Assembly: GCA_029953615.1 (NCBI GenBank) | Contig: CP124529.1 | Location: forward strand, 2,756,998-2,820,997 | Origin: Pseudomonas putida | GTDB lineage: Bacteria; Pseudomonadota; Gammaproteobacteria; Pseudomonadales; Pseudomonadaceae | Reading direction: 5' to 3' | Length of the DNA: 64,000 nt | Part shown: positions 1,942 to 39,000 of the stretch, piece after piece | How the letters are laid out: each line of letters begins with the position of its first letter | How positions within the stretch are numbered: position 1 is the stretch's first letter | Program-made: the position numbers and the translations under genes | Notes under the pieces: model-generated | Told to the model about the DNA's origin: nothing | What the model saw: the letters and a program-made list of their open reading frames with translations, nothing else | The model's database searches: none

Positions 1942-2916
1942 CTAGAACAACTTCAGTGGTGGTTCGTCCAGCGCGGCCATCTGCTCGCGCAGGGCGAGAA
2001 TCTGATCGCCCCAGTAGCGTGGTTGGCCAAACCAGGGGAAGCTGGGCGGGAATGCCGGGTCATCCCAGCGCCGTGCCAGCCAGGCGCTGTAGTGCAACTG
2101 ACGCAGGGCGCGCAGCGGCTCGATCAGAGCCAGTTCGCGCGGGTCGAAGTCGTGGAACTCGTTGTAGCCGTCGATCAACTCGGCAAGCTGGCCCAGGCGC
2201 TCTTCGCGGTTACCGGCCAGCATCATCCACAGGTCCTGCACTGCCGGGCCCATGCGGCAGTCGTCGAGGTCGACCATGTGGTACACCTCGTCGCGGTGCA
2301 TCAGGTTGCCGGGGTGCAGGTCGCCGTGCAGGCGGATGAGTTGGTGCGGTGTGCGGGCGTAAATGTCCTCCACCCGCTTGAGCAGGTCACGGGCTACGGA
2401 CTCGAAGGCCGGTAGTAGCTCGCCAGGAACAAAACCGCCTTCCAGCAAGGTGTCCAGCGAGGCATGGCCGAAGTTGTCCACAGCCAATGCTTCGCGGTGT
2501 TCGAACGGTTTGCTGGCGCCCACGGCATGCAGGCGGCCGAGCAGCTGGCCCAGGCGGTAGAGCTGGTCGAGGTTGCCCGGCTCCGGGGCGTGGCCGCCAC
2601 GGCGGGGGAACAGGGTGAAGCGGAAGCCCTGATGTTCGAACAAGGTTCGGCCGTCGTGTTGCATGGGCGCAACCACCGGTACTTCGCAGTCGGCCAGTTC
2701 GGCAGTGAAGCTGTGTTCTTCGAGGATGGCCGCGTCGCTCCAGCGGCCTGGGCGGTAGAACTTTGCGATCAGCGGTTGCGAATCTTCGATGCCCACCTGG
2801 TAGACGCGGTTCTCGTAACTGTTCAGCGCCAGCACCCGGGCATCGCTGAGGAAGCCGATGCTTTCCACGGCGTCCAGGACCAGATCGGGGGTGAGGGTGT
2901 CGAAGGGGTGGGACAT
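1942..2916 (-). CDS. srkA: Stress response serine/threonine protein kinase (SrkA/YihE/RdoA)
   Basis: The 324-residue protein is a cytoplasmic aminoglycoside-phosphotransferase-fold kinase. In E. coli SrkA phosphorylates Ser/Thr and counters stress-induced death linked to MazF. The catalytic loop 'RLHGDLHPGNLMH' and the metal-binding 'MVDLDDCRMGPAVQDLWMML' segment are both present, and the N-terminal lobe carries 'ENRVYQVG...LIAKFYRPGRW'. I chose the ATG at 2916 (MSHPFDTLTPD) because GGAG lies 5-6 bases upstream; an in-frame start at 2949 has no such site. Length is normal for the family. It is a lone gene, followed by an intergenic stretch and preceded by a REP pair. Confidence 0.9.
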   Translation of the reverse strand: MSHPFDTLTPDLVLDAVESIGFLSDARVLALNSYENRVYQVGIEDSQPLIAKFYRPGRWSDAAILEEHSFTAELADCEVPVVAPMQHDGRTLFEHQGFRFTLFPRRGGHAPEPGNLDQLYRLGQLLGRLHAVGASKPFEHREALAVDNFGHASLDTLLEGGFVPGELLPAFESVARDLLKRVEDIYARTPHQLIRLHGDLHPGNLMHRDEVYHMVDLDDCRMGPAVQDLWMMLAGNREERLGQLAELIDGYNEFHDFDPRELALIEPLRALRQLHYSAWLARRWDDPAFPPSFPWFGQPRYWGDQILALREQMAALDEPPLKLF

Positions 2917-2969
2917 GGAGGCTCCGAGGGTAAGCTGCATGGGGCCCATGGTAGCGCGTTATGCCTGTA

Positions 2970-3059
2970 CCGGCCTCTTCGCGGGTGAACCCGCTCCCAC
3001 TGGTACAGTGCAGGCTTCAAGTCGTGCGTTATCCCTGTGGGAGCGGGTTTACCCGCGAA
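2970..3059. repeat. REP element pair (inverted)
   Basis: Two facing copies of the P. putida-type REP palindrome: 'CCGGCCTCTTCGCGGGTGAA' plus CCCGCTCCCAC at 2970-3000, and its inverted counterpart CCCTGTGGGAGCGGG with TTTACCCGCGAA at 3033-3059. The pair sits between srkA and modE, which are both on the minus strand. Confidence 0.85.
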
Positions 3060-3079
3060 CCGCGTGCAGCGCGGCCAGG

Positions 3080-3844
3080 CTACGCGGGGACCCCGATCAA
3101 CACATAAGATGGATGAAACTGCACCCGCACCGCATTGCCAGTTTCCACCCGCTGCCCAGCCAACCAATCCGCCTCGGCAAACGCACACAACGTCTGCCCA
3201 TTGCCCAATGCCAGCCTGACCTCATTAGGCCCATCAGCTTCCGCCAGCACCTCTTCCACCGTCGCCCGCAGGCAATTGCTACCCGCTTCCGCCTCTTCCT
3301 CATCGGCCAACAGCGTCACCCACCCCGCCTTGAGCAACGCCACCACCATTGTCCCCAGCGTCAGCTCCAACCGCGCAGTGCTGTCGGCGGTGATCAACGC
3401 CTCGATCTCCAGCCCACCGCCCAGCGCCAGGCTGACGCGATCATACCGGCCCTCTCGGCGCAGGCCGCTGACCTGGCCCTGCAACTGGTTGCGTGCGCTG
3501 GTACGCAGCATCAGCCGGCCAAGCAGGTCTAAGTCGCTGGACTCCTCGGCTGCTTCGAGGATTTGCGCCTGCAGGGCCTGCAGCCTCTGATACAGGCGCA
3601 GTACACGCTCGCCTTCCGGCGAAAGCCGCGCACCACCGCCGCCACGCCCACCAGTGCTGCGCTCGACCAGGGGCTGGCTGGCCAGATTGTTCAGTTCGTC
3701 GATGGCATCCCAGGCGGCCTTGTAGCTGATGCCCGCAGCCCTGGCGGCGCGGGTGATCGAGCCTTGCTCGGCAATGTGCTGCAGCAGCGCGATGCGCTGC
3801 GGGCGGCGGGTGATGTGCTGGGTGAGGAGGGTGGGTAGGGGCAT
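3080..3844 (-). CDS. modE: Molybdate-dependent transcriptional regulator ModE
   Basis: This 254-residue protein matches ModE in length and layout. An N-terminal winged helix-turn-helix (about 15-80) contains 'GSITRAARAAGISYKAAWDAIDELNN', followed by the glycine-rich wing 'ERSTGGRGGGGARLSPEGERVL'. The C-terminal half holds two TOBE-type modules, one with 'TSARNQLQGQVSGLRREG' and one with 'CLRATVEEVL...GPNEVRLALGNGQTLCAF'. ModE senses molybdate through these modules and represses mod transport genes. No mod genes are visible beside it. The start at 3844 has no strong ribosome-binding site but fits the family N-terminus. Confidence 0.9.
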   Translation of the reverse strand: MPLPTLLTQHITRRPQRIALLQHIAEQGSITRAARAAGISYKAAWDAIDELNNLASQPLVERSTGGRGGGGARLSPEGERVLRLYQRLQALQAQILEAAEESSDLDLLGRLMLRTSARNQLQGQVSGLRREGRYDRVSLALGGGLEIEALITADSTARLELTLGTMVVALLKAGWVTLLADEEEAEAGSNCLRATVEEVLAEADGPNEVRLALGNGQTLCAFAEADWLAGQRVETGNAVRVQFHPSYVLIGVPA

Positions 3845-3929
3845 GGGCAGTCAGTCGATGTAAGTGGTAGCCAAGTGTGGATTGTGGAGGAACACCTGTC
3901 TTGCGCAAAATCCAGAAGCTTGACCAGGT

Positions 3930-4032
3930 CCCTGTGGGAGCGGGCGCGTCGAGGCGTCGAACCGCCGCGAACACCGGCAAAGCCGGTGCCATACACTGCG
4001 TCGCCTGTTTCGCGGGCGCGCCCGCTCCCACA
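3930..4032. repeat. REP element pair (inverted)
   Basis: A facing pair of REP-type sequences: CCCTGTGGGAGCGGGCGCG at 3930 and TTTCGCGGGCGCGCCCGCTCCCACA ending at 4032. Between them is the linker 'CACCGGCAAAGCCGGTG', itself a small hairpin. It lies between the modE and comF-like genes. Confidence 0.8.
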
Positions 4033-4052
4033 TGGATCGCACCCACTTCGAG

Positions 4053-4784
4053 TCATACATACCCCGGCTTTGGCGTACGCGCCAGGCAATACACATCCAC
4101 CCGCCGTGCCCCGGCCTTGCGAAGCACCTCGGCGATAGCCTGCGCGGTAGCGCCGGTGGTCAGCACATCATCCACTATGGCGACATGCTTACCCTTCAGC
4201 TCGCCCATGACCGCAAAAGCCTGGCGCAAATTTCGCCGCCTGGCCTTGGCATCCAGGCGTTGCTGCGCAGGTGTCTCCCGAGTGCGCAGCAGCAACCGCT
4301 CGTCGCAACCTACCCCCAGCCGGGACGACAGCCAGCGCCCGAGCAGCTCCGCCTGGTTGAACCCTCGCTCGCGCAGTCGACGTTTGGCCAAGGGTACAGG
4401 CAACAACAGGTCGGGGCGGGGCAGCCCCTCGGCAAAGCGATGCAACAGCCCATGCCCCAGCAGTTCAGCCATCAACCGCCCCAAGGGCCATTGGCGGTTG
4501 TGCTTGAAGCGGCTGATCAGCGTGTCCACCGGAAAGCCGAAATGCCACAGCGCAACCACCTGCTCGAAGGCCGGTGGGCGCCGGCAGCACGGGGCGCAGG
4601 TCAGGCCGGCCATAGGCAACGGCAGGGCGCAGTGCAGGCACTGGTCGCCGAGCCATGGCAGTTCCTGCTCGCAGGCTACGCACAGCGGGTAGGCCTGCTC
4701 GGCAGGTTCATCGCACAGCAAGCACGATTGATTAATAATTGAGCACTTGTAAACCAGTCTTTTCCAGTGTGGTTGACAGTTCAT
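4053..4784 (-). CDS. ComF family phosphoribosyltransferase-like protein
   Basis: The 243-residue protein has an N-terminal zinc-ribbon region with paired cysteines (CLLC at 21-24, CVAC, CLHC, CAPCC). A type I phosphoribosyltransferase fold follows, with the PRPP loop 'VAIVDDVLTTGAT' near 201-213. ComF/GntX proteins are linked to DNA uptake or gluconate use depending on species; the exact reaction is not known. It is divergent from bioB. Its first ten codons overlap the BirA-type operator at 4747-4779, so either the start is correct and biotin control touches this gene too, or a rarer downstream start is used. No good alternative ATG or GTG precedes the first CxxC. Confidence 0.8.
   Translation of the reverse strand: MNCQPHWKRLVYKCSIINQSCLLCDEPAEQAYPLCVACEQELPWLGDQCLHCALPLPMAGLTCAPCCRRPPAFEQVVALWHFGFPVDTLISRFKHNRQWPLGRLMAELLGHGLLHRFAEGLPRPDLLLPVPLAKRRLRERGFNQAELLGRWLSSRLGVGCDERLLLRTRETPAQQRLDAKARRRNLRQAFAVMGELKGKHVAIVDDVLTTGATAQAIAEVLRKAGARRVDVYCLARTPKPGYV
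4747..4779 (+). promoter_or_regulatory. BirA-type biotin operator upstream of bioB
   Basis: TTGTAAACC (4747-4755), 15 bases, then GGTTGACAG (4771-4779). The known BirA box is TTGTAAACC-N14/15-GGTTTACAA: the left half matches fully and the right half 7 of 9. The position upstream of the bio operon supports biotin repression. The right half-site contains a consensus -35 TTGACA, so bound repressor would cover the promoter. Confidence 0.85.
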
Positions 4785-9857: not shown

Positions 9858-9883
9858 CAGGCGCCCCCTCGAATCACACACAG

Positions 9884-9985
9884 CCCTCTGTGGGAGCGGG
9901 CGTGCCCGCGAATGCGCCAGCTCAGGCACCTCCCACCTCCATTGTCTGCTCAGGCCCTTTCGCGGGCACGCCCGCTCCTACAAGG
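9884..9985. repeat. REP element pair (inverted)
   Basis: CCTCTGTGGGAGCGGGCGTGCCCGCGAA (from 9884) faces TTTCGCGGGCACGCCCGCTCCTACA (ending near 9983). They lie between the small rod-like gene and the first acyl-CoA dehydrogenase. Confidence 0.8.
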
Positions 9986-10082
9986 GCAGCGCTTTTTCTG
10001 AGCTTGGCGTAAACGTCATTTTTCGTGGCGTAAATGGCACCATAGTCCATCCTTGACATCAGGCAGAGCTAAACGTAAGTTT

Positions 10083-10096
10083 CAAACAACTGTTTG
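10083..10096 (+). promoter_or_regulatory. PsrA-type operator (CAAAC-N4-GTTTG)
   Basis: CAAACAACTGTTTG is a 14-base palindrome that fits the known PsrA box (G/CAAAC-N2-4-GTTTG/C). PsrA is a TetR-type repressor released by long-chain fatty acids. It sits 57 bases before the start of the acyl-CoA dehydrogenase gene, where a repressor would act. The match of site type to gene function is the main support. Confidence 0.6.
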
Positions 10097-10152
10097 ATCG
10101 ACGGCCGCCAAGTGCGGGTCACCCCACAGAACTCACCTAGAGGTTCATCGCA

Positions 10153-11960
10153 ATGCCTGATTACAAAGCCCCCTTGCGTGATATCCGCTTCGTTCGCGAC
10201 GAACTGCTCGGTTATGAGGCGCACTATCAGAGCCTGCCGGGTTGCCAGGACGCCACGCCCGACATGGTCGACGCGATCCTTGAAGAAGGCGCGAAGTTCT
10301 GTGAGCAGGTGCTGTCGCCGCTGAACCGTGTGGGTGACCAGGAAGGCTGCACCTGGAGCGAATCGGGCGTGAAAACCCCGACCGGCTTCAAGGAGGCCTA
10401 CCAGCAGTTCGTCGAAGGCGGCTGGCCGAGCCTGGCGCATGACGTCGAGCACGGCGGCCAGGGCCTGCCAGAGTCGCTGGGCCTGGCCCTGAGCGAAATG
10501 GTCGGCGGTTCGAACTGGTCGTGGGGCATGTACCCCGGCCTGTCCCACGGCGCGATGAACACCATTTCCGCGCATGGCACCCCCGAGCAGCAGCACACCT
10601 ACCTGACCAAGCTGGTGTCCGGCGAGTGGACCGGCACCATGTGCCTGACCGAGCCACACTGCGGCACTGACCTGGGCATGCTGCGCACCAAGGCCGAGCC
10701 ACAGGCCGACGGCAGCTACAAGGTGTCGGGTACCAAGATCTTCATTTCGGCCGGTGAGCACGACATGGCCGACAACATCGTCCATATCGTCCTGGCCCGT
10801 CTGCCGGACGCACCGGCCGGCACCAAGGGTATCTCGCTGTTCATCGTGCCGAAGTTCCTGCCCAACGCCGAAGGCGGTGTGGGCGAGCGCAACGGCGTGA
10901 GCTGTGGCTCGATCGAGCACAAGATGGGTATCCACGGCAACGCCACCTGCGTGATATGAACTTCGACGGCGCTACCGGCTACCTGATCGGCCCGGCCAAC
11001 AAAGGCCTGAACTGCATGTTCACCTTCATGAACACCGCTCGCCTGGGTACTGCGCTGCAAGGCCTGGCTCACGCCGAGGTGGCTTTCCAGGGGGGCTTGA
11101 AGTACGCCCGTGAGCGCCTGCAGATGCGTTCTCTGACTGGCCCGAAAGCACCGGACAAGGCTGCTGACCCGATCATCGTCCACCCGGACGTGCGTCGCAT
11201 GCTGCTGACCATGAAGGCCTTCGCCGAAGGCAACCGTGCGATGGTGTACTTCACTGCCAAGCAGGTGGACATCGTCAAGTACAGCCAGGATGAGGAAGAG
11301 CGCAAGAAGGCTGATGCCCTGCTGGCGTTCTTGACCCCGATCGCCAAGGCATTCATGACCGAAGTCGGTTTCGAAGCCGCCAACCACGGCGTGCAGATCT
11401 ACGGCGGCCATGGCTTCATCGCCGAGTGGGGCATGGAGCAGAACGTGCGCGACAGCCGCATTTCCATGCTGTACGAAGGTACCACCGGCATCCAGGCCCT
11501 GGACCTGCTCGGCCGCAAGGTACTGATGACCCAGGGCGAAGCGCTGAAGGGCTTCACCAAGATCGTGCACAAGTTCTGCCAGGCGCAGGAAGGCAACGAC
11601 GCAGTCAAGGAATTCGTCGAACCGCTGGCGGCGCTGAACAAGGAGTGGGGCGAGCTGACCATGAAAGTGGGCATGGCCGCCATGAAGGACCGCGAAGAAG
11701 TGGGTGCGGCCTCGGTCGATTACCTGATGTATTCCGGCTACGCCTGCCTGGCCTACTTCTGGGCCGACATCGCCCGCCTGGCGGCCGAGAAACTGGCTGC
11801 CGGCACCAGCGAAGAAGCGTTCTACACCGCCAAGCTGCAGACCGCGCGCTTCTACTTCCAGCGCATCCTGCCGCGTACCCGTACCCATGTTGCGAGCATG
11901 CTGTCGGGTGCCGACAACCTGATGGCGATGGACGAAGAGCACTTCGGCCTGTCGTACTGA
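10153..11960 (+). pseudogene. Acyl-CoA dehydrogenase (~600 aa, phenylacyl-CoA/fatty acyl-CoA type), interrupted by a 2-base insertion
   Basis: The first frame (10153-10959, 268 codons) begins [20 protein letters not shown] and stops at TGA just after '[16 protein letters not shown]'. The second frame (10956-11960, 334 codons) resumes with '[18 protein letters not shown]' and runs to the normal end 'MAMDEEHFGLSY'. The downstream paralogue reads 'ATCVMNFDEAVGYIVG' through the same place, which shows that one extra AT at about 10954-10957 splits the gene. Repaired, it gives about 601 residues, the usual length of this large dehydrogenase class. The catalytic-base region 'QIYEGT'-like block ('MLYEGTTGIQALDLLGRK') is intact. 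A P. putida orthologue has been described as a phenylacyl-CoA dehydrogenase. Either real inactivation or sequence error; the ATGA overlap at the break could also allow restart, but no ribosome-binding site is visible. Confidence 0.85.
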
Positions 11961-29711: not shown

Positions 29712-30482
29712 TCAAATATTTTGCATCATTCTGCACTTAGGAAATGCTGAACATCCCCAAAACTGCTGGCCCGCTTTCGTCCCTGATTTCACGGTACGAA
29801 TCAGCAGCGCACTACCGCATTTCGGGCATTGCCGCTCGGCTGTCGGATCACTACGGCGCTTAAGGTTTTGCACATGCTCGCGGTGGGTGGCGAGGGTCGG
29901 TGCGCGGCGGCCGGTTTGCAGGGCGTGCAGCATGGCGTCGACTTCAGCCTCGCTGAATACTGGTTGCTGGAATGACTGGATATAGCGGATAAAGCCGATG
30001 CCCTGGGTCACATTGGCCGGTGCTTCGGTTTTGAAGGTGCTGCCGCCGACGAAGGTGATGACCGAGTGCAGGTGCTCGGGATTGACGCCAAGAGTGGCTT
30101 CCAGCGCTTTGAGGTGTTTGTAGTTCTGCCGCAGCGGGTTCTGGAATTTGAAGGTGCGCTTGTAGAGCTTCTGCGTCCACTGCGCCTGCTTTTCACTGCC
30201 GAAGATCCAGCCGCTCATGTTCTTCGTTTCCAGTACGAAGATGCCGTAGGTCGAGAGGAATACGTGGTCGATCTGCGTGGTGCCGTCCGGCGTGTTCAGA
30301 GTGACGTTGTGCAGACGGCGATAGATCTGTTTGTCCAGTTGCCAATGGGCGAACAGGCGTACCAGCAGTTCACCGATCTGCCCCTTGGCCCAGGGCGATT
30401 TGAGTAGGCCGATCAGCAGAGCTGCTGGGATGAACCAGGTCAGCATGCCCCAGACCTGAGAGACTATTGGGGTGTAATCCAT
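29712..30482 (-). CDS. NERD-domain protein with topoisomerase-type zinc finger
   Basis: The 256-residue protein starts MDYTPIVSQVWGMLTWFIPA, with one N-terminal membrane segment (about 8-27). A NERD domain, a nuclease-related fold, covers about 35-150 ('KGQIGELLVRLFAHWQLDKQ', 'TQIDHVFLSTYGIFVLETKN' with the nuclease-like D...E-x-K triad). The C-terminus has a four-cysteine finger ('CPKCGSALLIRTVKSGTKAGQQFWGCSAFPKC') like that of topoisomerase I. I start at the ATG at 30482 because GGAAG precedes it; a start 13 codons upstream is possible. Membrane anchoring with a DNA-binding finger suggests action on incoming or membrane-near DNA, but the function is unknown. It looks accessory. Confidence 0.85.
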   Translation of the reverse strand: MDYTPIVSQVWGMLTWFIPAALLIGLLKSPWAKGQIGELLVRLFAHWQLDKQIYRRLHNVTLNTPDGTTQIDHVFLSTYGIFVLETKNMSGWIFGSEKQAQWTQKLYKRTFKFQNPLRQNYKHLKALEATLGVNPEHLHSVITFVGGSTFKTEAPANVTQGIGFIRYIQSFQQPVFSEAEVDAMLHALQTGRRAPTLATHREHVQNLKRRSDPTAERQCPKCGSALLIRTVKSGTKAGQQFWGCSAFPKCRMMQNI

Positions 30483-30654
30483 TTTCTTCCTTGAGTAGAG
30501 CTGCTTGATGGCTGGGTGCACAGGTGTGCCGAAATCCAGTTGCCTGGCACTGCTTCGGATAATGGCTAATTGATTTCAATGGCTCAAGGGGGGCGTGACC
30601 ATAGTCCTAGGGCGCGATGAGGCACTAGGGGCCTGACTTGGTCGACTTAGGTGC

Positions 30655-31776
30655 TCAGCGTGCTATCTGGTAACGGGTGCTGCGCCCACCACCGGGCAGC
30701 CGCTCGATGCAGCCCTTCTCCATCAGGTCGCTCAGGTGACGGGTCGCGGTGGCCTTGGAGACCTTGGCCACGGCTTGGTATTGCGCCGCGCTGATTCCGT
30801 CCTCGAAACCCTTTTCGCCGCCATCGAGCAGGCGGTTCAGCACTTTGATCTGTTCCGCCGATAGGGTTTGGCTGCGGTGTGCCTGCCAGAAGCGCGCCTT
30901 GACCAGTACGCGGTCGATACGAGCGAGGGCCTGCTCCAGGCTGTTGAGCAATGTCTTGAGAAACCACTGCAGCCAGGCGGTGATGTCCAAGTTGCCTTTC
31001 TGACTGGCTTCGAGGATGCGGTAGTAACCAGCGCGGTCGTCGAGGATGCTCGCTGACATCGCGTAAAAGCGAATGGCATGCTTTTCGCCCTGAGCCAATG
31101 CCTGGTCGGTGATAGCGCGCGTGAGGCGACCGTTGCCGTCATCGAAGGGGTGCAGTGTTACGAACCAGAAATGTGCAATACCGGCGCGCAGAAAGGGGTC
31201 AAGGCTGGCATCGTTGCGGCTGCTCTCGAACCAGGCGAGAAAGTCCGTCAGTTGCGCTTCCAATCCTGCGCGAGGAGGGGCTTCGAAATGTACGGTGGGG
31301 CGGTCGACCCGACCTGAAACGACCTGCATGGGCTCTTCGCCACGCAGTGCACCGATGTGTAGCGGTCGAGTCAGCAATTGCTCATCAGTGGGGAATAGCC
31401 AACGGTGCCAGGTGAACAGTCGCTGTTTGTCTAGTGGTTGTTGATGCAGGCGGGTGGCATCGAGCAGCAGTTCCGCCAGGCCTTCGGAGCGCGAGGTGGT
31501 GCGACCTTCTTCGCTCAGCCCCAAGCGCCGCGCCAGTGATGAGCGCACCGAACCGACATTCAGTTGCTCGCCCTCGATGGCTGAAGAGGTGACGATGTTC
31601 TGTAGCATGGCATCCAGGCTGCTCTGCACTTCGGTGTCACTGCCCACCGCACTGAGCATTCCCAACAAACGACCCTGAGCCTCGCTGCAGGCTCGCAACA
31701 GCGGGGCGAGCGCTTCGGCTTGCCAACTGAAGTGCGGCCAGTCGGGCTGCAGCCAGATCCAGAGCGGGTCATTCAT
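30655..31776 (-). CDS. Fic family protein with winged-helix C-terminus
   Basis: The 373-residue protein has an N-terminal Fic-associated domain ('PDWPHFSWQAEALAPLLRA'), the inhibitory motif SSAIEG at 64-69 and the complete active motif HPFDDGNGRLTR at 209-220. The C-terminal 60 residues form a winged helix ('GISAAQYQAVAKVSKATATRHLSDLMEKG'). Intact motifs predict AMP transfer (or a related NMP transfer) that is self-inhibited by the N-terminal helix. The DNA-binding end plus two palindromes just upstream (31793-31855) suggest autoregulation. No separate antitoxin gene is visible. Confidence 0.92.
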   Translation of the reverse strand: MNDPLWIWLQPDWPHFSWQAEALAPLLRACSEAQGRLLGMLSAVGSDTEVQSSLDAMLQNIVTSSAIEGEQLNVGSVRSSLARRLGLSEEGRTTSRSEGLAELLLDATRLHQQPLDKQRLFTWHRWLFPTDEQLLTRPLHIGALRGEEPMQVVSGRVDRPTVHFEAPPRAGLEAQLTDFLAWFESSRNDASLDPFLRAGIAHFWFVTLHPFDDGNGRLTRAITDQALAQGEKHAIRFYAMSASILDDRAGYYRILEASQKGNLDITAWLQWFLKTLLNSLEQALARIDRVLVKARFWQAHRSQTLSAEQIKVLNRLLDGGEKGFEDGISAAQYQAVAKVSKATATRHLSDLMEKGCIERLPGGGRSTRYQIAR

Positions 31777-31792
31777 AAGGGTTGTTCATCTG

Positions 31793-31821
31793 TGAGCCGA
31801 TTAACGAGCCTATTCGGCTCA
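31793..31821 (-). promoter_or_regulatory. Palindromic operator 1 upstream of fic
   Basis: TGAGCCGA-N13-TCGGCTCA, 16 bases before the fic start. A second copy with the same arms and spacing follows 34 bases away. Twin operators right before a gene whose product ends in a winged helix fit autorepression; the binding protein is inferred. Confidence 0.7.
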
Positions 31822-31826
31822 TGCAG

Positions 31827-31855
31827 TGAGCCGATAATGCCGCCTATTCGGCTCA
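31827..31855 (-). promoter_or_regulatory. Palindromic operator 2 upstream of fic
   Basis: The second TGAGCCGA-N13-TCGGCTCA, in which the last three bases of the spacer (TAT) are shared with copy 1. The 34-base centre spacing is close to three helical turns, so two dimers could bind the same face of the helix. Confidence 0.7.
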
Positions 31856-32061
31856 CTGTCTAATTCTCAAGCCTGGCTTGCTAGGTTGATGAGCACGTAA
31901 CTCAAGGGCTACAAGCTTCCAGGCATGGCTGCGTCTGCATCGGTTTCCGGTTGTAGGTTCGGTTACCGATGCCTGTGCCAAGCTGATCGCAATGTAGAGT
32001 AAACCTGAATGATAGCGAGCCAAGGCCGCGGCTGACCCAGATGCACAACCCTGAAAAGCTT
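31856..32061. other. Intergenic DNA between the fic operators and the left island boundary
   Basis: About 200 bases of mixed composition with no reliable frame or RNA gene. Short frames on the minus strand have no ribosome-binding site or family features. It may be debris from earlier insertions at the tRNA. Confidence 0.4.
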
Positions 32062-32134
32062 AAAGCCGCGCAGTGCGCGGCTTGTAAGTTGGTGGGCCCA
32101 CACGGACTCGAACCGTGGACCAAAGGATTATGAG
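32062..32134. repeat. attL: 73-bp direct repeat holding the 3' part of tRNA-Ile2
   Basis: These 73 bases are identical to 35950-36022. They contain the last 45 bases of the tRNA (32090-32134) and the tRNA terminator hairpin AAGCCGCGCA-G-TGCGCGGCTT. After position 32134 the two copies diverge. This is the left boundary of an element that entered at the 3' end of the tRNA gene. Confidence 0.92.
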
Positions 32135-32539
32135 CCCGAAAAAATCACCCATAGCCATTGGGAAAACCCTTGATCTACCTGATTTTATTGAATATCCGAT
32201 TTTATTGGGGAAGGGTTTTAGATTTCGGTGTGGACACATTGTGGACACATCCGACTGTACCGGGCTGCATAGGGCTTCAGTTCTTTGCACAGTGTGCAAT
32301 GCCCTGGTGCTCTACGCGGCCCGCGCTGGGCCTGCCCCGGGGCTAGCTTGCACCTGGGCTGGCCTTTGCACTATTTCGCGACGCAGACCGCGTCGGCGGG
32401 AGGGGGATAAGTGATTTTCAAGGCGAATTTTTTCGACGATAGGATTTTTCTCTATAGCAGATAGGAGCGCCGCCCGTACTATCATAGGGCCAGCCTGTAA
32501 GTATCAGGCATCTAGGAATTCACGCCAGGAGCTTGATCT
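32135..32539. other. Left end of the element, non-coding
   Basis: 405 bases without a convincing gene. Notable are a direct repeat GATTTTATTG (32180s and 32198 region), the tandem GTGGACACATT repeat at 32230-32252, several short palindromes, and an AT-rich stretch at 32410-32480 suited to a promoter for the gene at 32540. Confidence 0.5.
32230..32252. repeat. Tandem GTGGACACATT repeat, left copy
   Basis: GTGGACACATT followed at once by GTGGACACATCC; the same 23 bases occur at 35874-35896 near the other end of the element. Tandem 11-base units near both ends are what arm-type integrase binding sites look like. In the right copy they overlap the end of the integrase frame. Confidence 0.6.
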
Positions 32540-33604
32540 GTGCTTAACGTCTTCGCCATCGTCGGCCTTGTGCTTTTGCCCATTTCTTTGGCAGTTCTGA
32601 TAATTAGCATTGCCTTGCATAAAAGTGTTTCGTTTTTGGCAATTAGTCGAACGGTCTCATTGCATTCAAGTGAAGGGCTTGCGAAGCAGGGGTTGTTTTG
32701 GCTATCTATTTTGGTCCCAATAATTCTTTTTTTTGAATTTGGATATTTTGTTTGGTCTGGATCTTCGTTAGAGCTTAGTCAGGAAGGATTTAAGAATTTT
32801 ATAACCTTGAGTGCACTTCCAATTGGATTGCTGTCATTGTCGATACCAGCAGCCGCACTTGTTACAAAGCTTCACTCTACAGCACAGACCGCCAAGCAAA
32901 TAATAATTGCAGAGAAGAAAAATAATTATGACTTGTTTTATATGCATAGAAGGGAGTTCTCTGCATACTACGCGCAAATTGGGCCATTAGAATTCTTGGG
33001 AGAATTCACTGCTTCCTATAAAGTCAATCCGCGCTTGCATGCTGTTCTGTTCAGTGGAGAGGCTGCTGATGGTATCCCAATGTTAAGAGCTAAGTTCATC
33101 AGTCAACGTATAGCAGATTTAAAGCGGGCCCGGGAATTGTTGATAGGGGTCTTGACAAGCACTGATCTTATTGAGGCGCTTCCGAAGTATCTTCAGTTCT
33201 CAAAGATAGTAGATGATATTTTTACGCATTTTGGTGTCTTTGATGTACAAAAGCAGTTAGCAAAAAAAAGCATTAAGGTTACATATATGTTGAATGGCGA
33301 GAAATTGGCCCAGCGTACGGCAGGGTCAACTACTCGCCAGGCAATCTCTGCATTTCGTTGTGCAAAGAGCTATATGCTCTTAGCAATGGAGTTTGCTGGT
33401 TATGAGGAGGGTGTTCGGCTTGTACGCGACGAGGAGGTAGATTTTATCGATGCGACGACAGGCTATCAAACTATTCATTACCAACAGGTTAGGGTTATTG
33501 AAGCGATTATTAACACCTGTAATATGCAGCGCATGAAAGACGAAGTGCCAGAGCTGGCGGCTTCTTTGTCGAAGGGGTGCGAGAATAAGGATGGCCAGTC
33601 TTAG
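32540..33604 (+). CDS. Unknown membrane protein of the tRNA-Ile2 element (gene A)
   Basis: The 354-residue protein starts at a GTG with AGGAG about ten bases upstream. It has three hydrophobic segments: about 4-26 ('FAIVGLVLLPISLAVLIISI'), 52-72 ('LFWLSILVPIILFFEFGYFV') and 86-108. A soluble, helical, charged domain of about 240 residues follows ('QTAKQIIIAEKKNNYDLFYM' onward). I do not recognise a family. The shape (membrane hairpin plus cytosolic domain with 'NYDLFYMHRREF') recalls putative phage abortive-infection membrane proteins. GC is far below the genome level. The next gene starts nine bases after its stop, so the two form one operon. Confidence 0.8.
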   Translation: MLNVFAIVGLVLLPISLAVLIISIALHKSVSFLAISRTVSLHSSEGLAKQGLFWLSILVPIILFFEFGYFVWSGSSLELSQEGFKNFITLSALPIGLLSLSIPAAALVTKLHSTAQTAKQIIIAEKKNNYDLFYMHRREFSAYYAQIGPLEFLGEFTASYKVNPRLHAVLFSGEAADGIPMLRAKFISQRIADLKRARELLIGVLTSTDLIEALPKYLQFSKIVDDIFTHFGVFDVQKQLAKKSIKVTYMLNGEKLAQRTAGSTTRQAISAFRCAKSYMLLAMEFAGYEEGVRLVRDEEVDFIDATTGYQTIHYQQVRVIEAIINTCNMQRMKDEVPELAASLSKGCENKDGQS

Positions 33605-33613
33605 GGTTCTCAA

Positions 33614-34297
33614 ATGCATGATTTTCAGTATTTCTTGATCTGTGTCTTAGATTGGCTCGCCTCGTTTTTCCCAAGAGTGCTCTCAAAGGAAGCGATATCG
33701 GCTTTGGTAGGGGGAGGTATAGCCGGATGGTTCGGTTTTAAAGCTACCAAGAAAGCCCATGAATATGCGTTGCAAAAAGCTGAATCGGAGGAGGTTAAGG
33801 TTACAACGCAGACTTTACGTCTTATGCTTGTGGAAATTCAGACGGCGTGGAAAATTTATAAAGAAGAGTACGCCCCCGATCTTGAGGCTCTACCCGACGA
33901 CGCCCCGCACCTTTTGGTTTTTCCGTTAGGCGAAAATATTTTTGTTGTTTATGATTCTGCGCCAAGTTGCATGGCTAACTTGCCGTCTGAAGTTTCAGAG
34001 ACTCTAGTGCGTATATATATGCGCATGAAGGGTATGGTGGCTATGATTAAACTAAATAACGAAGAGACCTTAGAGGCCATTAGGTTAGGCCAGGAGCAGG
34101 TTTTAAAGCTAACGGTCTCTGGGAAGGACCCAAAGGATCTTGAGGATACTTTTATTATGCACCAGGCACGAAAGATGAAAATGGAAACGAACGCAAGAAG
34201 TATGCGTGGTTTGGCTGCGGAGATTGATTCGCTGTATAAGCGGCTTCTCGCACTGTCGCGCGCAATGGGCGTAGACGTTGAAAAAAGCGCATTTTGA
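33614..34297 (+). CDS. Unknown membrane-anchored helical protein of the tRNA-Ile2 element (gene B)
   Basis: The 227-residue protein starts MHDFQYFLICVLDWLASFFP and has one or two hydrophobic segments in the first 45 residues ('YFLICVLDWLASFFP', 'ISALVGGGIAGWFGF'). A long helix 'KKAHEYALQKAESEEVKVTT' and a mostly alpha-helical remainder follow. The C-terminal 100 residues are highly charged and likely coiled ('KMKMETNARSMRGLAAEIDSLYKRLL'). No enzyme motif is visible. It shares low GC and operon position with gene A, and a bidirectional terminator follows. The pair probably works together; its function is unknown. Confidence 0.8.
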   Translation: MHDFQYFLICVLDWLASFFPRVLSKEAISALVGGGIAGWFGFKATKKAHEYALQKAESEEVKVTTQTLRLMLVEIQTAWKIYKEEYAPDLEALPDDAPHLLVFPLGENIFVVYDSAPSCMANLPSEVSETLVRIYMRMKGMVAMIKLNNEETLEAIRLGQEQVLKLTVSGKDPKDLEDTFIMHQARKMKMETNARSMRGLAAEIDSLYKRLLALSRAMGVDVEKSAF

Positions 34298-34361
34298 CAT
34301 AGGCCTAATGGCAGAAGATGACGACCTTGTCAGGTTGCTGCGGCGAAGATGAACTATAAAT

Positions 34362-34383
34362 AAGCCCGCATGAAGCGGGCTTT
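34362..34383. terminator. Bidirectional terminator
   Basis: AAGCCCGC (34362-34369) pairs with GCGGGCTT (34375-34382), with TTT on the right and AAATA on the left. It separates gene B (+) from the SGNH hydrolase remnant (-). Confidence 0.7.
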
Positions 34384-34386
34384 GAG

Positions 34387-35594
34387 TTACGCAGACTCCA
34401 GCGCGTTGACGATGTTCCTAGCCATCAGGGAGTACCCGAGGCTGTTAGGATGCAGACCATCGTTCGCCAGGACGTTGATATCTACAGCTGACAGAGCCGT
34501 GTAGTTGTCGACCATGTCCAGCTTGCGGGACTGAGCAGCCCGGTAAATAGTCCCCCGGACATCCTGCATCGTGAAGGAAAACGTCTCGGGGTTCTCATCG
34601 GCAGCTGGGTTGGCACACATCAGGATCACATCAGCCATCGGCTGCAGTACATCCAGGAGCAGTCCGAGGTTGTAGGCGTACTCGTTCACGCCGCTTGCAA
34701 ACTGCACAGATCGGATCCGGTCGTTGGTACCGATCTGGCAAAACACGTAGTTGTCCTGGGTGCCTACCGCGACGCCGTCCCCAAAGCCTGCGCCAGTGGG
34801 TGGCAGGTTGTTGACGCGGTAGGTCCTGGAGCTGGCGCCGTTGATGCCCTGGTTGGTAATCCGGATCTTCTTGTTGATGATGATGGCTTCCGGCCGGAAC
34901 ACCTTGCTGCCAGTGGTTTGCGAGGCCCTGCGCTTGGTGCGCAGCTCCACCACTTTGTCCCGAACGTAGCCAAAGGTATGCGCCCGTCGACGGTCGTTAC
35001 CGTAGGTCAATCCATCTTCGCCCTCGGTGGTGGTGAACACGCCTTGGCTGGCCCCGTCCACAATCAGCTCATAGTCCAGCGCATCCCCCACCACCCCGAA
35101 CGACAGAGTGAAGCCGGTACCCGTGAAGCGGAAGCTGATCGTGTGGGAGCTGGTCCCGGCGCTGTTGCCATCTGCCAACTGGTACTGGGCTCCTGTGAGT
35201 GCGCCTCCGGCGGTCAGGGCCACCGTGTTGGACATCGATGGCCCAACGGTGGTGAGGGTGAAGGCGCCACCGCGTGGGAACAGCGTGACCGGCACGGTGT
35301 ATTCAACCGTGGATTCGCCGCTTGGGCTGGCGGGCCAGTTCGACAGGACCGGTTCTGCCCCGAAGGCGTACCGCTCGCCGATATAGCGCTTGAACACGTT
35401 GACGTACGATCCGGTGCCAAACCAGTCCCGGGGATCGGACAGTGTTCTGTCGCGGGGTTCGGTGACACCTTGCTCGGTGCCGTTACCGCTGCCCAGGTGA
35501 TCGAATCCCCGATGAAGACGATGCTGGTGATCTGCTCAAGCGGGTTGCCCAGGGATGCCTTGAGCTTGGACAGCTGGCGACCGAAGCGATGTTC
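34387..35594 (-). pseudogene. SGNH/GDSL hydrolase, phage type, frameshifted and 5'-truncated
   Basis: The main frame (34387-35397, 336 codons) includes the SGNH block III 'FCQIGTNDR' and block V 'DGLHPNSLGYSLMA'. The missing block I is found in another frame just upstream: 'QITSIVFIGDSITW'. One G lost in the run at about 35492 would join the two ('GDSITWGSGNGTEQGVTE'). Further upstream an in-frame TAG (35595-35597) and a junction to the integrase remnant cut off the rest. Such hydrolases with a beta-rich middle ('TISFRFTGTGFTLSFGVVGD') are found in prophage tail regions and may trim surface polysaccharide. It is on the strand opposite to genes A and B. Confidence 0.75.
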
Positions 35595-35917
35595 CTATCA
35601 CCGCTGACTTCGAGAAACGCCTGCACGCTGCGCTGCCGTTCCGACCTGGTTACAACATCTTTCGGAAAGTGGTCGAACAGCTCCAGCTCGATCTACCCGA
35701 TGGCCAGCTGACGCATGTACTCCGGCACACCTTCGCCAGCCACTACATGCGAAATGGCGGGAACATCCTGACTCTGCAGCGGGTGATTTGCCATGCCACG
35801 TTAGCCATGACTCAGAAGTTCAGCCCTGGGCATCTGGCCGATGTGGTCAATCTCAACCCTCTGGCAGGCATGCGTGGACACATTGTGGACACATCCAGGG
35901 ATTGTGAAAGTAAGTAA
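35588..35917 (+). pseudogene. Tyrosine-type integrase, C-terminal remnant
   Basis: The frame reads 'VPITADFEKRLHAALPFRPG' then 'LTHVLRHTFASHYMRNGGNI' and 'LQRVICHATLAMTQKFSPGH', ending CESK. The HxxR box (H-V-L-R-H-T-F-A-S-H) and the catalytic tyrosine region of phage-type integrases are expected here; the usual 'LGHATLAMT-Y' position reads 'ATLAMTQKF', so the nucleophile tyrosine seems absent or shifted. The upstream two thirds are missing: the frame joins the SGNH remnant near 35590. Frames from the ATG at 35669 code only for the last 82 residues. It lies next to the tRNA, the normal place for an island integrase. Confidence 0.8.
35874..35896. repeat. Tandem GTGGACACATT repeat, right copy
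   Basis: The same 23 bases as 32230-32252. Here they are also codons near the integrase C-terminus. Confidence 0.6.
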
Positions 35918-35949
35918 GGTGGGAAATGGCAGGGGCGGCCAGAAACGAC

Positions 35950-36022
35950 AAAGCCGCGCAGTGCGCGGCTTGTAAGTTGGTGGGCCCACACGGACTCGAA
36001 CCGTGGACCAAAGGATTATGAG
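35950..36022. repeat. attR: 73-bp direct repeat in the intact tRNA-Ile2
   Basis: Identical to 32062-32134. It spans the tRNA terminator hairpin (35951-35971) and the tRNA 3' half up to the anticodon loop, ending at 36022. Confidence 0.92.
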
Positions 36023-36054
36023 TCCTCTGCTCTAACCGACTGAGCTATAGGCCC
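35978..36054 (-). tRNA. tRNA-Ile2 (anticodon CAT, lysidine-modified)
   Basis: The 77-base cloverleaf reads GGGCCTATAGCTCAGTCGGT... and ends in an encoded CCA. The acceptor stem GGGCCTA/TGGGCCC pairs fully with one wobble, and the anticodon loop is CTCATAA (CAT). The 'CTTTGGTC' arm resembles Ile2 rather than elongator Met tRNA, and its position near rpoD matches ileX of E. coli. A Met identity cannot be excluded by sequence alone. Its 3' part is the attachment site of the adjoining element, which restores the full tRNA. Confidence 0.85.
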
Positions 36055-36070
36055 TCAGTAAGTGGCCGGA

Positions 36071-39000
36071 TTATAACGAGGGTTTCGCACCGGTGCCATC
36101 CGAAAGATCGGATAGTGCTATACGAAGAAACGTCGCCGCGAACTCCTCCGGGGGCAGGGGCAGGCTGACGATGTAACCCTGGATCTGCTCGCAGCCTTCA
36201 GCCGCGAGGAAGCGTTGCTGGGCCTGGTTTTCCACACCCTCGGCAATGATGGTCAGCTGCATGCTGCGGCCCAGGGCGATGATCGCCCTGGCGATGGCGG
36301 CGTCGTGGGGATCGTCGGGCAGGCCGCGGATGAATGACTTGTCGATCTTGAGGATGTCCAGCGGCAGGCGCTTGAGGTAACTCAGCGAGGAGTAACCAGT
36401 GCCAAAGTCATCGATGGCCAGCTGCACGCCGAGTTTCTTCAGCTGGTAGAGCACGGCCAGGGCTTCCTCTGCCTGGCTCATGATGAAGTTTTCGGTGATT
36501 TCCAACTGCAGGTCGCCAGCCTTTAGCTGGTAGTGCTTCAGCAACTGTTCGATGCGCCGGGCAAGGTGGGGGTGGCGCAGCTGGGCGCCGGCGAGGTTGA
36601 TCGACAGCGGGCCGAAGGGGTCGTAGTGCATCTTCCAGGCCTGCATCTGTCGGCAGGCCTGTTCCAGCACCCAGTCGCCGATCTGGAGGATGGTGCCGTT
36701 CTCTTCCGCCAGGTGGATGAAGTGCTCTGGCGGCACTTCACCAAAGGTCGGGTGGCTCCAGCGGATCAGCGCTTCGGCGCCGACCAGGCTCTGGGTCTTG
36801 AGGCTGAGTTTGGGCTGGAAGCACAGGCTCAGTTCATTGCGTTCGATGGCGCGACGCAGCTCATGCTCCAGGGCGATGCGTTCGCTGGCCTGGGCGGTGA
36901 GGTCGAGGGTGTAGGCTTCGACGCGGTTACGACCCTTGGCCTTGGAGCGGTACATGGCGGCGTCGGCGTTGCGAATCAGTGTGGCAACGTCAGTGCCGTC
37001 CTGTGGATAAAGGCTGATGCCGATGCTGGCGCTGGTGAAGAACTCGTGCTCGCCAGCCTGGAACGGCGCGTTGAAGCAGGTCAGCAGCTTGTTGGCGATG
37101 GCGCTGGCGTCACTGGGTTTGTGCAGGCCGGGCAGCAGGATGATGAATTCGTCGCCGCCCAGGCGGGCCACGGTGTCGACATCACGCACCTGCTCCTTCA
37201 GGCGTTGGGCAATGCCCTTGAGCAGCAGGTCGCCGACCGGGTGGCCGAGGCTGTCATTGATGTGCTTGAAACGGTCAAGGTCAAGGAACAGCACCGCGCC
37301 CTTGCGGTTGGACACCTGCGAGCAGGTCAGGGCAGCCTGCAGACGGTTCTCGAACAGGGCGCGGTTGGGCAGGCCGGTCAGCGGGTCGTGGTGGGCCTGG
37401 TAGTCAAGCTTGGCCTGGGCATGCTTGAGGCTGGAGATGTCGGCGAACACGGCGACGAAGTGGGTGATCTCGCGTTCGTTGTTACGCACGGCGCTGATGG
37501 TCAGCCAGCCGGGGTACAGTTCGCCGTTCTTGCGCTTGTTGTAGATCTCGCCTTGCCAGTGGCCTTCAGCCGTCAGTTGGTGCCACATGGCGGCATAGAA
37601 CGCGCTGTCGTGCTGGCCGGAGGCGAGCAGGCGCGGGGTCTGGCCGAGGGCTTCGATCTCGCTGTAGCCGGTGATTTCGCTGAAGGCGCGGTTGACGGCA
37701 CTGATGCGCTGGTCGATGTCGGTAATCAGCACGCCTTCGGCGGTGTTCTCGAACACGGTGGCGGCCAGTTGCAGCTTTTCCTGCATCAGGTGGCGCTCGG
37801 TGATGTCACGCGCGATGGTCAGCATGCAGTCGTCGCCAGCAATCGGCAGCGGCCGTGCCGAGAGCTCGCACAGGCGAATCTGACCGTCGCTGCGGCGCAG
37901 GTGGCAGGTGAAGTCGCGTACGAAGCCGTCGCGCTTGAGTTGTTCGACCAGCCGTTTGCGTTCATTGAGATCGACCCAGATGCCCAGGTCCAGCGAGGTC
38001 TGGTCAAGCGTCGGGCTGAGGTCATAGCCGGTGAGGCGGCAGAAGCCCTCGTTCACTTCGAGCAGCAAGCCGTCGCTCTGGCGCGACAGTAGCAGGCCGT
38101 CGGGCGAGGCGTGGAAGGCCTTGGCGAATTTCTCTTCCGAGGTTTGCAGCTGCTCCTGTGTTTCCTTGAGCTGGCTGATGTCTCGTACCGCCACCACCAG
38201 CGCGAGCTTGCCGTCGAGCTCGAAGGTCTCGGCCGAGGTCAGGCCGGTGAACAATTGGCCGTTGCTGCGACGGAAGCTCATTTCCATGTTGCGGATGCCA
38301 CCCTGATGCAGGCGTTCGAGCAGCCGCGGGCCAGTGTCTTCGACGCCCCATAGGTTGAGATCGGTGGCAGTACGGCCGATGACCTGCCCCGGAGAGAGGC
38401 CTATCTGCTCTTCGAAGGCTTCGTTCACTTCCAGCAGGCAGCCGTCGCTATGGCGGGCGATCAGCAGGATGTCCGGGCACTGCTGGAACACCGAGGCGAA
38501 CTTCTGCTCGGACAGGCGCAGGGCGTCTTCGGTGCGCTTGGTCTCGCTGATATCGATCATCAGCCCACGCATCACCGGCTGGTGGCCATGCTCGATCATG
38601 CTGACGATGTTACGTACCCACAATGGCTGGCCATCGGCGCGGATCACGCGGTAGTCGAGGCTGTGGTCGCGCCCGGCGGCGGTTTCGCTGTCGCAGTAGG
38701 CCTGGGCCCAGAGGGCATCCTCCGGGTGCAGGATACTGCGCCAGAAGCCGGGTTTGAGCCAGTCGCCCAGTGGATAGCCAAGCAAGCCTTCGGCGTGGGG
38801 CGAGACGTAGCTGTAGGTGAAATCGTTCGCGTCGGCCTCCCAGGCAATGGCAGACAGGCTCTCGATCAGGCTGCGGTAGTGGTATTCGCTGCTGCGCAGT
38901 TCCTGTTCGAGAGCGATGCGCCGGGAAATTTCCGAACTGAGCCGGCGATTGATGCGGATGACCACCGCCAGCACGGCTATCAAAGCCAGTACCGCGGGCA

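Follow-up and report, generated by a model that had tools for sequence, protein, structure and literature searches.

Two adjacent genes, here called A and B, lie on the plus strand within a 3.9-kb remnant of a P2-like prophage that is bounded by 76-bp repeats and sits at a tRNA-Met gene (Table 1); all positions are those of the window, meaning the whole 64,000-nucleotide stretch of Pseudomonas putida DNA that was analysed. ORFs were called by the longest-ORF rule, and reading of the gene A frame gave a GTG start with CAGGAG close 5' of it. The genes are 9 bases apart and have a low GC content (42.7% for A and 45.6% for B, against 51.8% over the element and 62.0% over the window). Since protein searches retrieved close relatives of both from elsewhere, with 69–73% identity for A and 74–77% for B, we consider them real genes; their open frames of 354 and 227 codons confirmed the description, in an earlier note made from the sequence alone, of two intact low-GC genes nine bases apart. 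Terminator-like patterns, such as the one that separates B from the convergent tail-spike ORF, occurred at 4 sites in positions 32000–34700, against a mean of 2.6 in shuffled sequence.

Table 1 Features of the prophage remnant, in window positions
Feature	Position	Strand	Evidence or comment
Left attachment-site copy, 76-nt direct repeat	32062–32137	+	tRNA-Met 3' part and following hairpin; repeat search
TGTGGACACAT repeated twice in tandem; possible arm-type sites for the integrase	32229–32252	+	Word count, repeat search
Gene A	32540–33604	+	354-aa membrane protein; phrog_17460 match
Gene B	33614–34297	+	227 aa; predicted helical bundle whose N-terminal membrane anchor is weak; no family name
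Terminator-like hairpin separating the convergent B and tail-spike ORFs	34362–34382	-	Pattern scan
SGNH/GDSL hydrolase ORF, 336 aa, probable tail-spike remnant	34387–35397	-	Pfam PF13472, 7.7e-10
P2-type tyrosine integrase C-terminal fragment (remnant)	35669–35917	+	PF00589, 1.1e-6; ~100 residues
23-nt repeat of 32230–32252; possible arm site for the integrase at the opposite end	35874–35896	+	Repeat search, word count
Right attachment-site copy	35950–36025	+	99% identical to left copy; overlaps tRNA-Met
tRNA-Met (CAT), integration target	35978–36054	-	ARAGORN; Rfam tRNA 6.3e-15 at 35981–36054

The element has attachment repeats at a tRNA gene together with part of a P2-type integrase, the combination by which a P2-like prophage is recognised here. 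For the 33-nt core of the attachment repeat, 0.00 chance matches were expected, and the stretch 35603–35914 had its best relatives in Pseudomonas phages phi3 and BIBS67, whose integrases are 65% identical to it, and was 49% identical to phage 186 Int. The sequence TGTGGACACAT occurred three times in the window, always inside the element and close to its two ends; arm-type sites of this sort are used by P2-type integrases. The shorter word TGTGGACA, which may be an arm-site word of these integrases, had two additional occurrences outside the element, on the minus strand, when counted over the window, and was not found in the literature searched for it. Capsid and tail genes of the P2-like set were absent from the ORF list and the Pfam matches, apart from the tail-spike-like ORF (35–38% identity to one stretch of Pseudomonas tail spikes, from P. 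putida phages), and we classed the element as a remnant for this reason. Besides A and B, the element looks like prophage debris: the probable tail-spike remnant and the C-terminal piece of an integrase are consistent with the earlier view that the surroundings of the two genes have decayed. A query with the tRNA region against 298 genomes gave matches swamped by the tRNA itself.

Gene A, its family and its two halves

Gene A matched phrog_17460, a phage family of unknown function, at 3.5e-25 over residues 29–147, a match that leaves out the C-terminal part of the protein. The structural model of A (mean pLDDT 94.3) has helices at residues 4–27 and 51–72, a long 47-residue helix at 101–147 and, beyond this third helix, a mainly helical soluble domain with short strands, in keeping with the three membrane segments plus soluble domain first proposed for it. 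The family is large and mostly prophage-borne. A protein search with A retrieved 30 proteins, A itself among them, while a scan with the A alignment located loci (given L numbers below) of which 72 are on viral contigs and 13 in species genomes; relatives were present in 14 Pseudomonas genomes out of 398, a count that includes the genome of the window, and 104 A genes formed 67 clusters at 75% identity. Two A relatives used as DNA queries had no match in E. coli genomes.

Conservation in the alignment was best at about residues 41–147, where H112, Q116, N128 and H136 are among the conserved positions, with F171, G178 and P180 also conserved. We compared the membrane modules and the C-terminal domains of 124 sequences, having left out those outside 280–400 aa. 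At BLAST E<1e-3 the membrane modules fell into one group and the C-terminal domains into nine, of 77, 39 and 2 sequences and six single ones. Among pairs with membrane modules 40–50% identical, the median identity of the C-terminal domains was 14%; in five examined pairs with membrane modules 66–72% identical, the C-terminal domains shared 20–26% identity or had no significant match. C-terminal homology was still visible in L062/L078 (2.5e-6) and L081/L056 (4.9e-16) and borderline in L070/L064 (0.001), so that divergence accounts for at least part of the difference, replacement being proven in no pair. Such uneven conservation is what would be expected of a constant effector joined to a changing sensor, and weak constraint on the C-terminal half would look alike. 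We also compared A with AbiV, the HEPN RNase of an antiphage system: the R-x4-6-H motif of such RNases had no occurrence in the soluble domain of A, and its one string, at residue 37, falls in the membrane part.

Some viral contigs held two to three A-family or intermediate genes each (L060, at 2278–4418 and 9875–10930; L059; L158), some of them overlapping end to start, which may represent tandem cargo or paralogues of different specificity.

Membrane module of gene A and the retron Ec48 effector

When 40 diverse members of the A family were scanned with PADLOC, five of them, namely the distant members L121–L124 and L002, matched 2TM_IV (best 7e-15), a model of the type IV retron effector. 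In the NCBIfam scan of the same 40 members, four matched NF038235 (best 9.2e-13), the model named 'retron Ec48 family effector', as did three of seven further intermediates (best 1e-8), the other four having no match at 0.01; where displayed, the A-family scores against NF038235 were under its curated cut-off of 65 bits. Searched against PADLOC and NCBIfam, A itself had no match at E≤1 and so passed neither effector model. Alignment by hhalign of the A profile (57 rows) with six intermediates gave a probability of 99.5% (E 7e-23, 137 columns). Moreover, a profile of intermediates built without A recovered A at 1.5e-25 from about 1970 proteins, the best decoy reaching 0.23, and this profile, the larger one, matched the Ec48-type effector L164 only weakly, at 4.3e-4; of other profiles, A7 matched L164 at 0.007 and A8 at 6, and A4 had no match at E≤10. 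L164 is a genuine Ec48-type effector, which matched the curated model at 6.8e-58 and overlaps a retron-type reverse transcriptase gene. On these comparisons, homology between the membrane module of A and that of the Ec48 effector appears well supported, through intermediates only, direct similarity between A and the effector not being detected.

According to reviews, Ec48 kills the cell upon inhibition of RecBCD by phage proteins, and its effector is a transmembrane protein (PMC9952470, PMC12409349, PMC12904381). Through the intermediates, A shares with this effector (Eco6, type IV; PADLOC 2TM_IV PDLC02912, NCBIfam NF038235) the membrane module and a juxtamembrane stretch, and in both the membrane part is N-terminal. 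With 354 aa, A has a longer C-terminal domain than the effector models, which span 219 and 235 positions. The role of the Ec48 effector is known solely inside the retron, whereas the window has no reverse transcriptase similar to that of L164 (tblastn, E≤0.01), and the four main ORFs of the element had no reverse transcriptase Pfam match. A phmmer search with the L164 reverse transcriptase matched one gene among the 1965 that surround the A and B loci and none of the 340 that surround the intermediates, and among the genes around the loci no A relative was found adjoining a reverse transcriptase; with reverse transcriptases nearly absent from their surroundings, A relatives thus appear to occur outside retrons. 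As to an msr-msd non-coding RNA, an Rfam scan of 31500–36300 returned the tRNA and two matches below gathering score.

Effector models were rare in the sampled genomes, with matches in 2 of 149 from Pseudomonas (the A relative L122 and one broken copy), 1 of 369 from the class and 2 of 299 from the phylum. An intermediate used as tblastn query matched three Vibrio phages and nothing in plasmids. One viral contig, L088, has a retron-type reverse-transcriptase-like gene at 757–2517 on the minus strand (phmmer 5.1e-13), with its A relative more than 7 kb off. Other PADLOC matches among the 40 members were to the CBASS 2TM effector in two (best 2.1e-4) and to KwaA in one (0.0037). A CBASS with a 2TM effector was rejected for the locus: a nucleotide cyclase partner was not found, and PADLOC gave no match at E≤1 for B or for the tail-spike and integrase remnants.

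Gene B and its pairing with gene A

B is modelled as an all-helical bundle whose N-terminal helix is long (mean pLDDT 86.7). As no 19-residue window exceeded 1.6 on the Kyte-Doolittle scale, its membrane anchor is called weak; of the earlier picture of a membrane anchor plus charged helices, the helical part agrees with the model, and the anchor is the point that hydropathy weakens. Sequence search with B found 9 proteins and profile search at least 19, B itself included. The family was present in 4 of 398 Pseudomonas genomes, on plasmid pPSR1 and on one viral contig, and absent from the phage records. PADLOC matched one of 26 B-family members to WH_III-A (1.2e-4) and one to Csm6 (0.037), and the B of the window to nothing. 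B is a separate, rare and unnamed family unrelated to A. The first reading of the locus had been unable to name either family, which still holds for B; A can now be placed, by phrog_17460 and by its kinship with the Ec48 effector. A is not wholly new: it is a stand-alone variant in the superfamily of a known defence effector, next to an unrelated unnamed companion.

The 9-nt spacing and common low GC would suit a true two-component system, either a toxin-like effector A restrained by B or a sensor B with effector A, and for two entries, P0002 (an A relative, 73%) and P0033 (a B relative, 74%), the longest contig has the same listed length of 5668 bases, the one hint of a second pair. Against such a system, the only one of the 398 Pseudomonas genomes with both A and B was that of the window, A being present in 14 and B in 4. 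Moreover, B was not seen in any of 85 A-loci (13 genome and 72 viral; at least 900 bases were present after A in 61 and less in 24), and B relatives have other neighbours, e.g. an AriAB-like ATPase in L110. The single viral-contig B-locus likewise had no A. We consider a two-component system decidedly unlikely; the co-occurrence data do not support a fixed two-gene module, the form in which the pair had first been put forward, and B seems only loosely tied to A. Since the pairing is not conserved in the data searched, B is treated below as optional.

Genomic settings of A relatives and a candidate role in defence

A gene of one integrase cluster stood immediately before A, on the same strand, in 34 of 101 A-loci, and 34 members of a repressor-like cluster lay two genes upstream; A was directly 3' of a tail-morphogenesis-like cluster in 11 loci and near a D-like gene in 11. 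These counts exclude the short duplicates L091–L108 and still include duplicates, L005 and L112, each on a contig of 31401 bases, being apparently one genome. The names tail-morphogenesis, D-like and repressor-like were given from recall of similar sequences and are presumptive, the last one also standing in the annotation of L003. A gene cluster matching Phage_base_V adjoined A in 8 loci (about three groups at 75% identity), adjoined a B relative in L090 and lay one gene from a B relative in L111, so that A and B relatives share a prophage slot.

Some A relatives have a setting that resembles an integron. In 6 of the 13 genome loci (L007, L008, L011, L012, L016, L017), one of two similar attC-like sequences, judged by eye, follows A, and L017 has an integron integrase (9.7e-121). 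The canonical attC core was absent from all 13 genome loci; a looser two-sided test, devised afterwards from the observed sequences, was positive for 3 of 98 plus-strand A genes and 10 of 1681 other genes.

The proximity of A relatives to known defence genes, suggested as a check on the earlier defence proposal, was found in some loci. PADLOC, run on ten neighbours chosen by eye and with no control, gave 7 matches at E≤0.01, all within three ORFs of A or B: a SIR2 protein of PDC-S65 in L113 (7.6e-215), an AAA ATPase of PDC-M38A in L009 (4e-72), an AriAB-like ATPase two ORFs upstream of the B relative of L110 (1.1e-53), a QatA/PifA-like ATPase in L118 (1.3e-23), an AbiE pair in L007 and a weak PDC-S02 in L005 (4.2e-5). 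The neighbours picked in L090, L021 and L119 had no match at this threshold.

Small variable cargo is a trait that A has in common with the defence genes that P2-like prophages carry (old, tin, fun, published hotspots), whose presence there is reported in the sections consulted of Rousset 2022 and Vassallo 2022 (PMC9122126, PMC9519451). The sites of the A family, mainly after int, after a tail gene and near the D-like gene, partly differ from the hotspots described in those sections, and A has no model in PADLOC-DB v2.0.0.

We infer that A is prophage cargo with a probable anti-phage role, similar to a retron effector. The best reading is that of a stand-alone retron-effector-like protein that would act in abortive infection or superinfection immunity. 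As a whole, the explanation that A protects the lysogen by a membrane effector, with B as an accessory, is the one we favour, with restrained confidence. The proposal of a defence or competition candidate in the earlier note has therefore held for mobile prophage cargo with a defence-like profile, but not for a two-gene system.

Superinfection exclusion without killing offers another account, by which A in the inner membrane, with or without B, blocks the entry of DNA from related phages and its variable C-terminal domain sets the specificity. Single small membrane proteins do adjoin int and repressor in temperate phages, and in the Vibrio phage L002 the A relative is directly 3' of a gene annotated LexA/Signal_peptidase. 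However, the remote homology favours an infection-aborting effector, and the integron-like and chromosomal copies of A are not bound to a prophage; we regard exclusion as unlikely. A function outside defence, with A as a membrane protein for lysis timing, regulation of lysogeny or maintenance of the element, seems very improbable to us. Sites beside int and repressor or in the tail region also hold non-defence cargo, and searches of open-licence papers by exact phrases found no experiment on the A family and no paper under the family's exact names, which leaves room for such a function; against it are the homology to a defence effector and the relatives that lie, outside prophages, in integron-like cassettes or close to defence-model genes.

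In the mechanism that we favour, protection by a membrane effector, A would be a stand-alone member of the membrane-protein superfamily that includes the Ec48 (type IV) retron effector, and would reside in the inner membrane of the lysogen, silent until infection. Its N-terminal three-helix module and conserved juxtamembrane stretch would form a membrane-damaging device, while the fast-diverging cytosolic domain would sense a sign of infection and release A from silence. The infected cell would be halted ahead of phage release, and the lysogen population protected against other phages. B may be an accessory: a helical, membrane-associated protein out of the same prophage cargo pool, a chance neighbour that possibly tunes A. 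The starting points of this scheme, namely the prophage location, the family membership, the remote homology via intermediates and the uneven conservation of the two halves of A, are computed; the defence function, the membrane attack, the sensing by the C-terminal domain and any role of B are proposals.

More tentatively, and with more doubt than confidence, A could stand for a large class, so far without a name, of membrane proteins that are sensor and effector in one, in prophages and integrons, mostly of Proteobacteria, with a constant killing module and ever-changing sensors, in which the Ec48 effector would be the branch that ceded sensing to a reverse-transcriptase complex. If true, a widespread prophage family of unknown function would become a testable single-gene defence family, the origin of the retron effector would be linked to stand-alone prophage proteins, and a membrane effector of this kind would be seen to function, or to be kept in check, in the absence of the reverse transcriptase by which its retron cousin is silenced.

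Further genes were observed next to A relatives and near the element. In L005, a gene with an Mrr-type restriction endonuclease domain (909–1940) has a 4-nt overlap with the start of the A relative, and in L021 a DUF5677-like gene precedes it, so that A may have varying partners. A recurrent 270-aa gene on the opposite strand, which by its look may encode an FRG-type protein, stands beside intermediate A-like genes in L146, L148, L149 and L150. In the window, just beyond the left repeat, a Fic/DUF4172 protein with a winged-helix-like C-terminus is encoded at 30655–31776 on the minus strand (PADLOC SoFic, 2.7e-38), perhaps another defence-related gene of this tRNA site, and is adjoined by a gene for a protein with a NERD nuclease-related domain and a zinc ribbon (29712–30521, minus strand). 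Upstream of the Fic gene, at 31792–31855, two 30-nt copies, 83% identical and 34 nt apart, carry GAGCCGAT / ATTCGGCTC motifs and are perhaps an operator.
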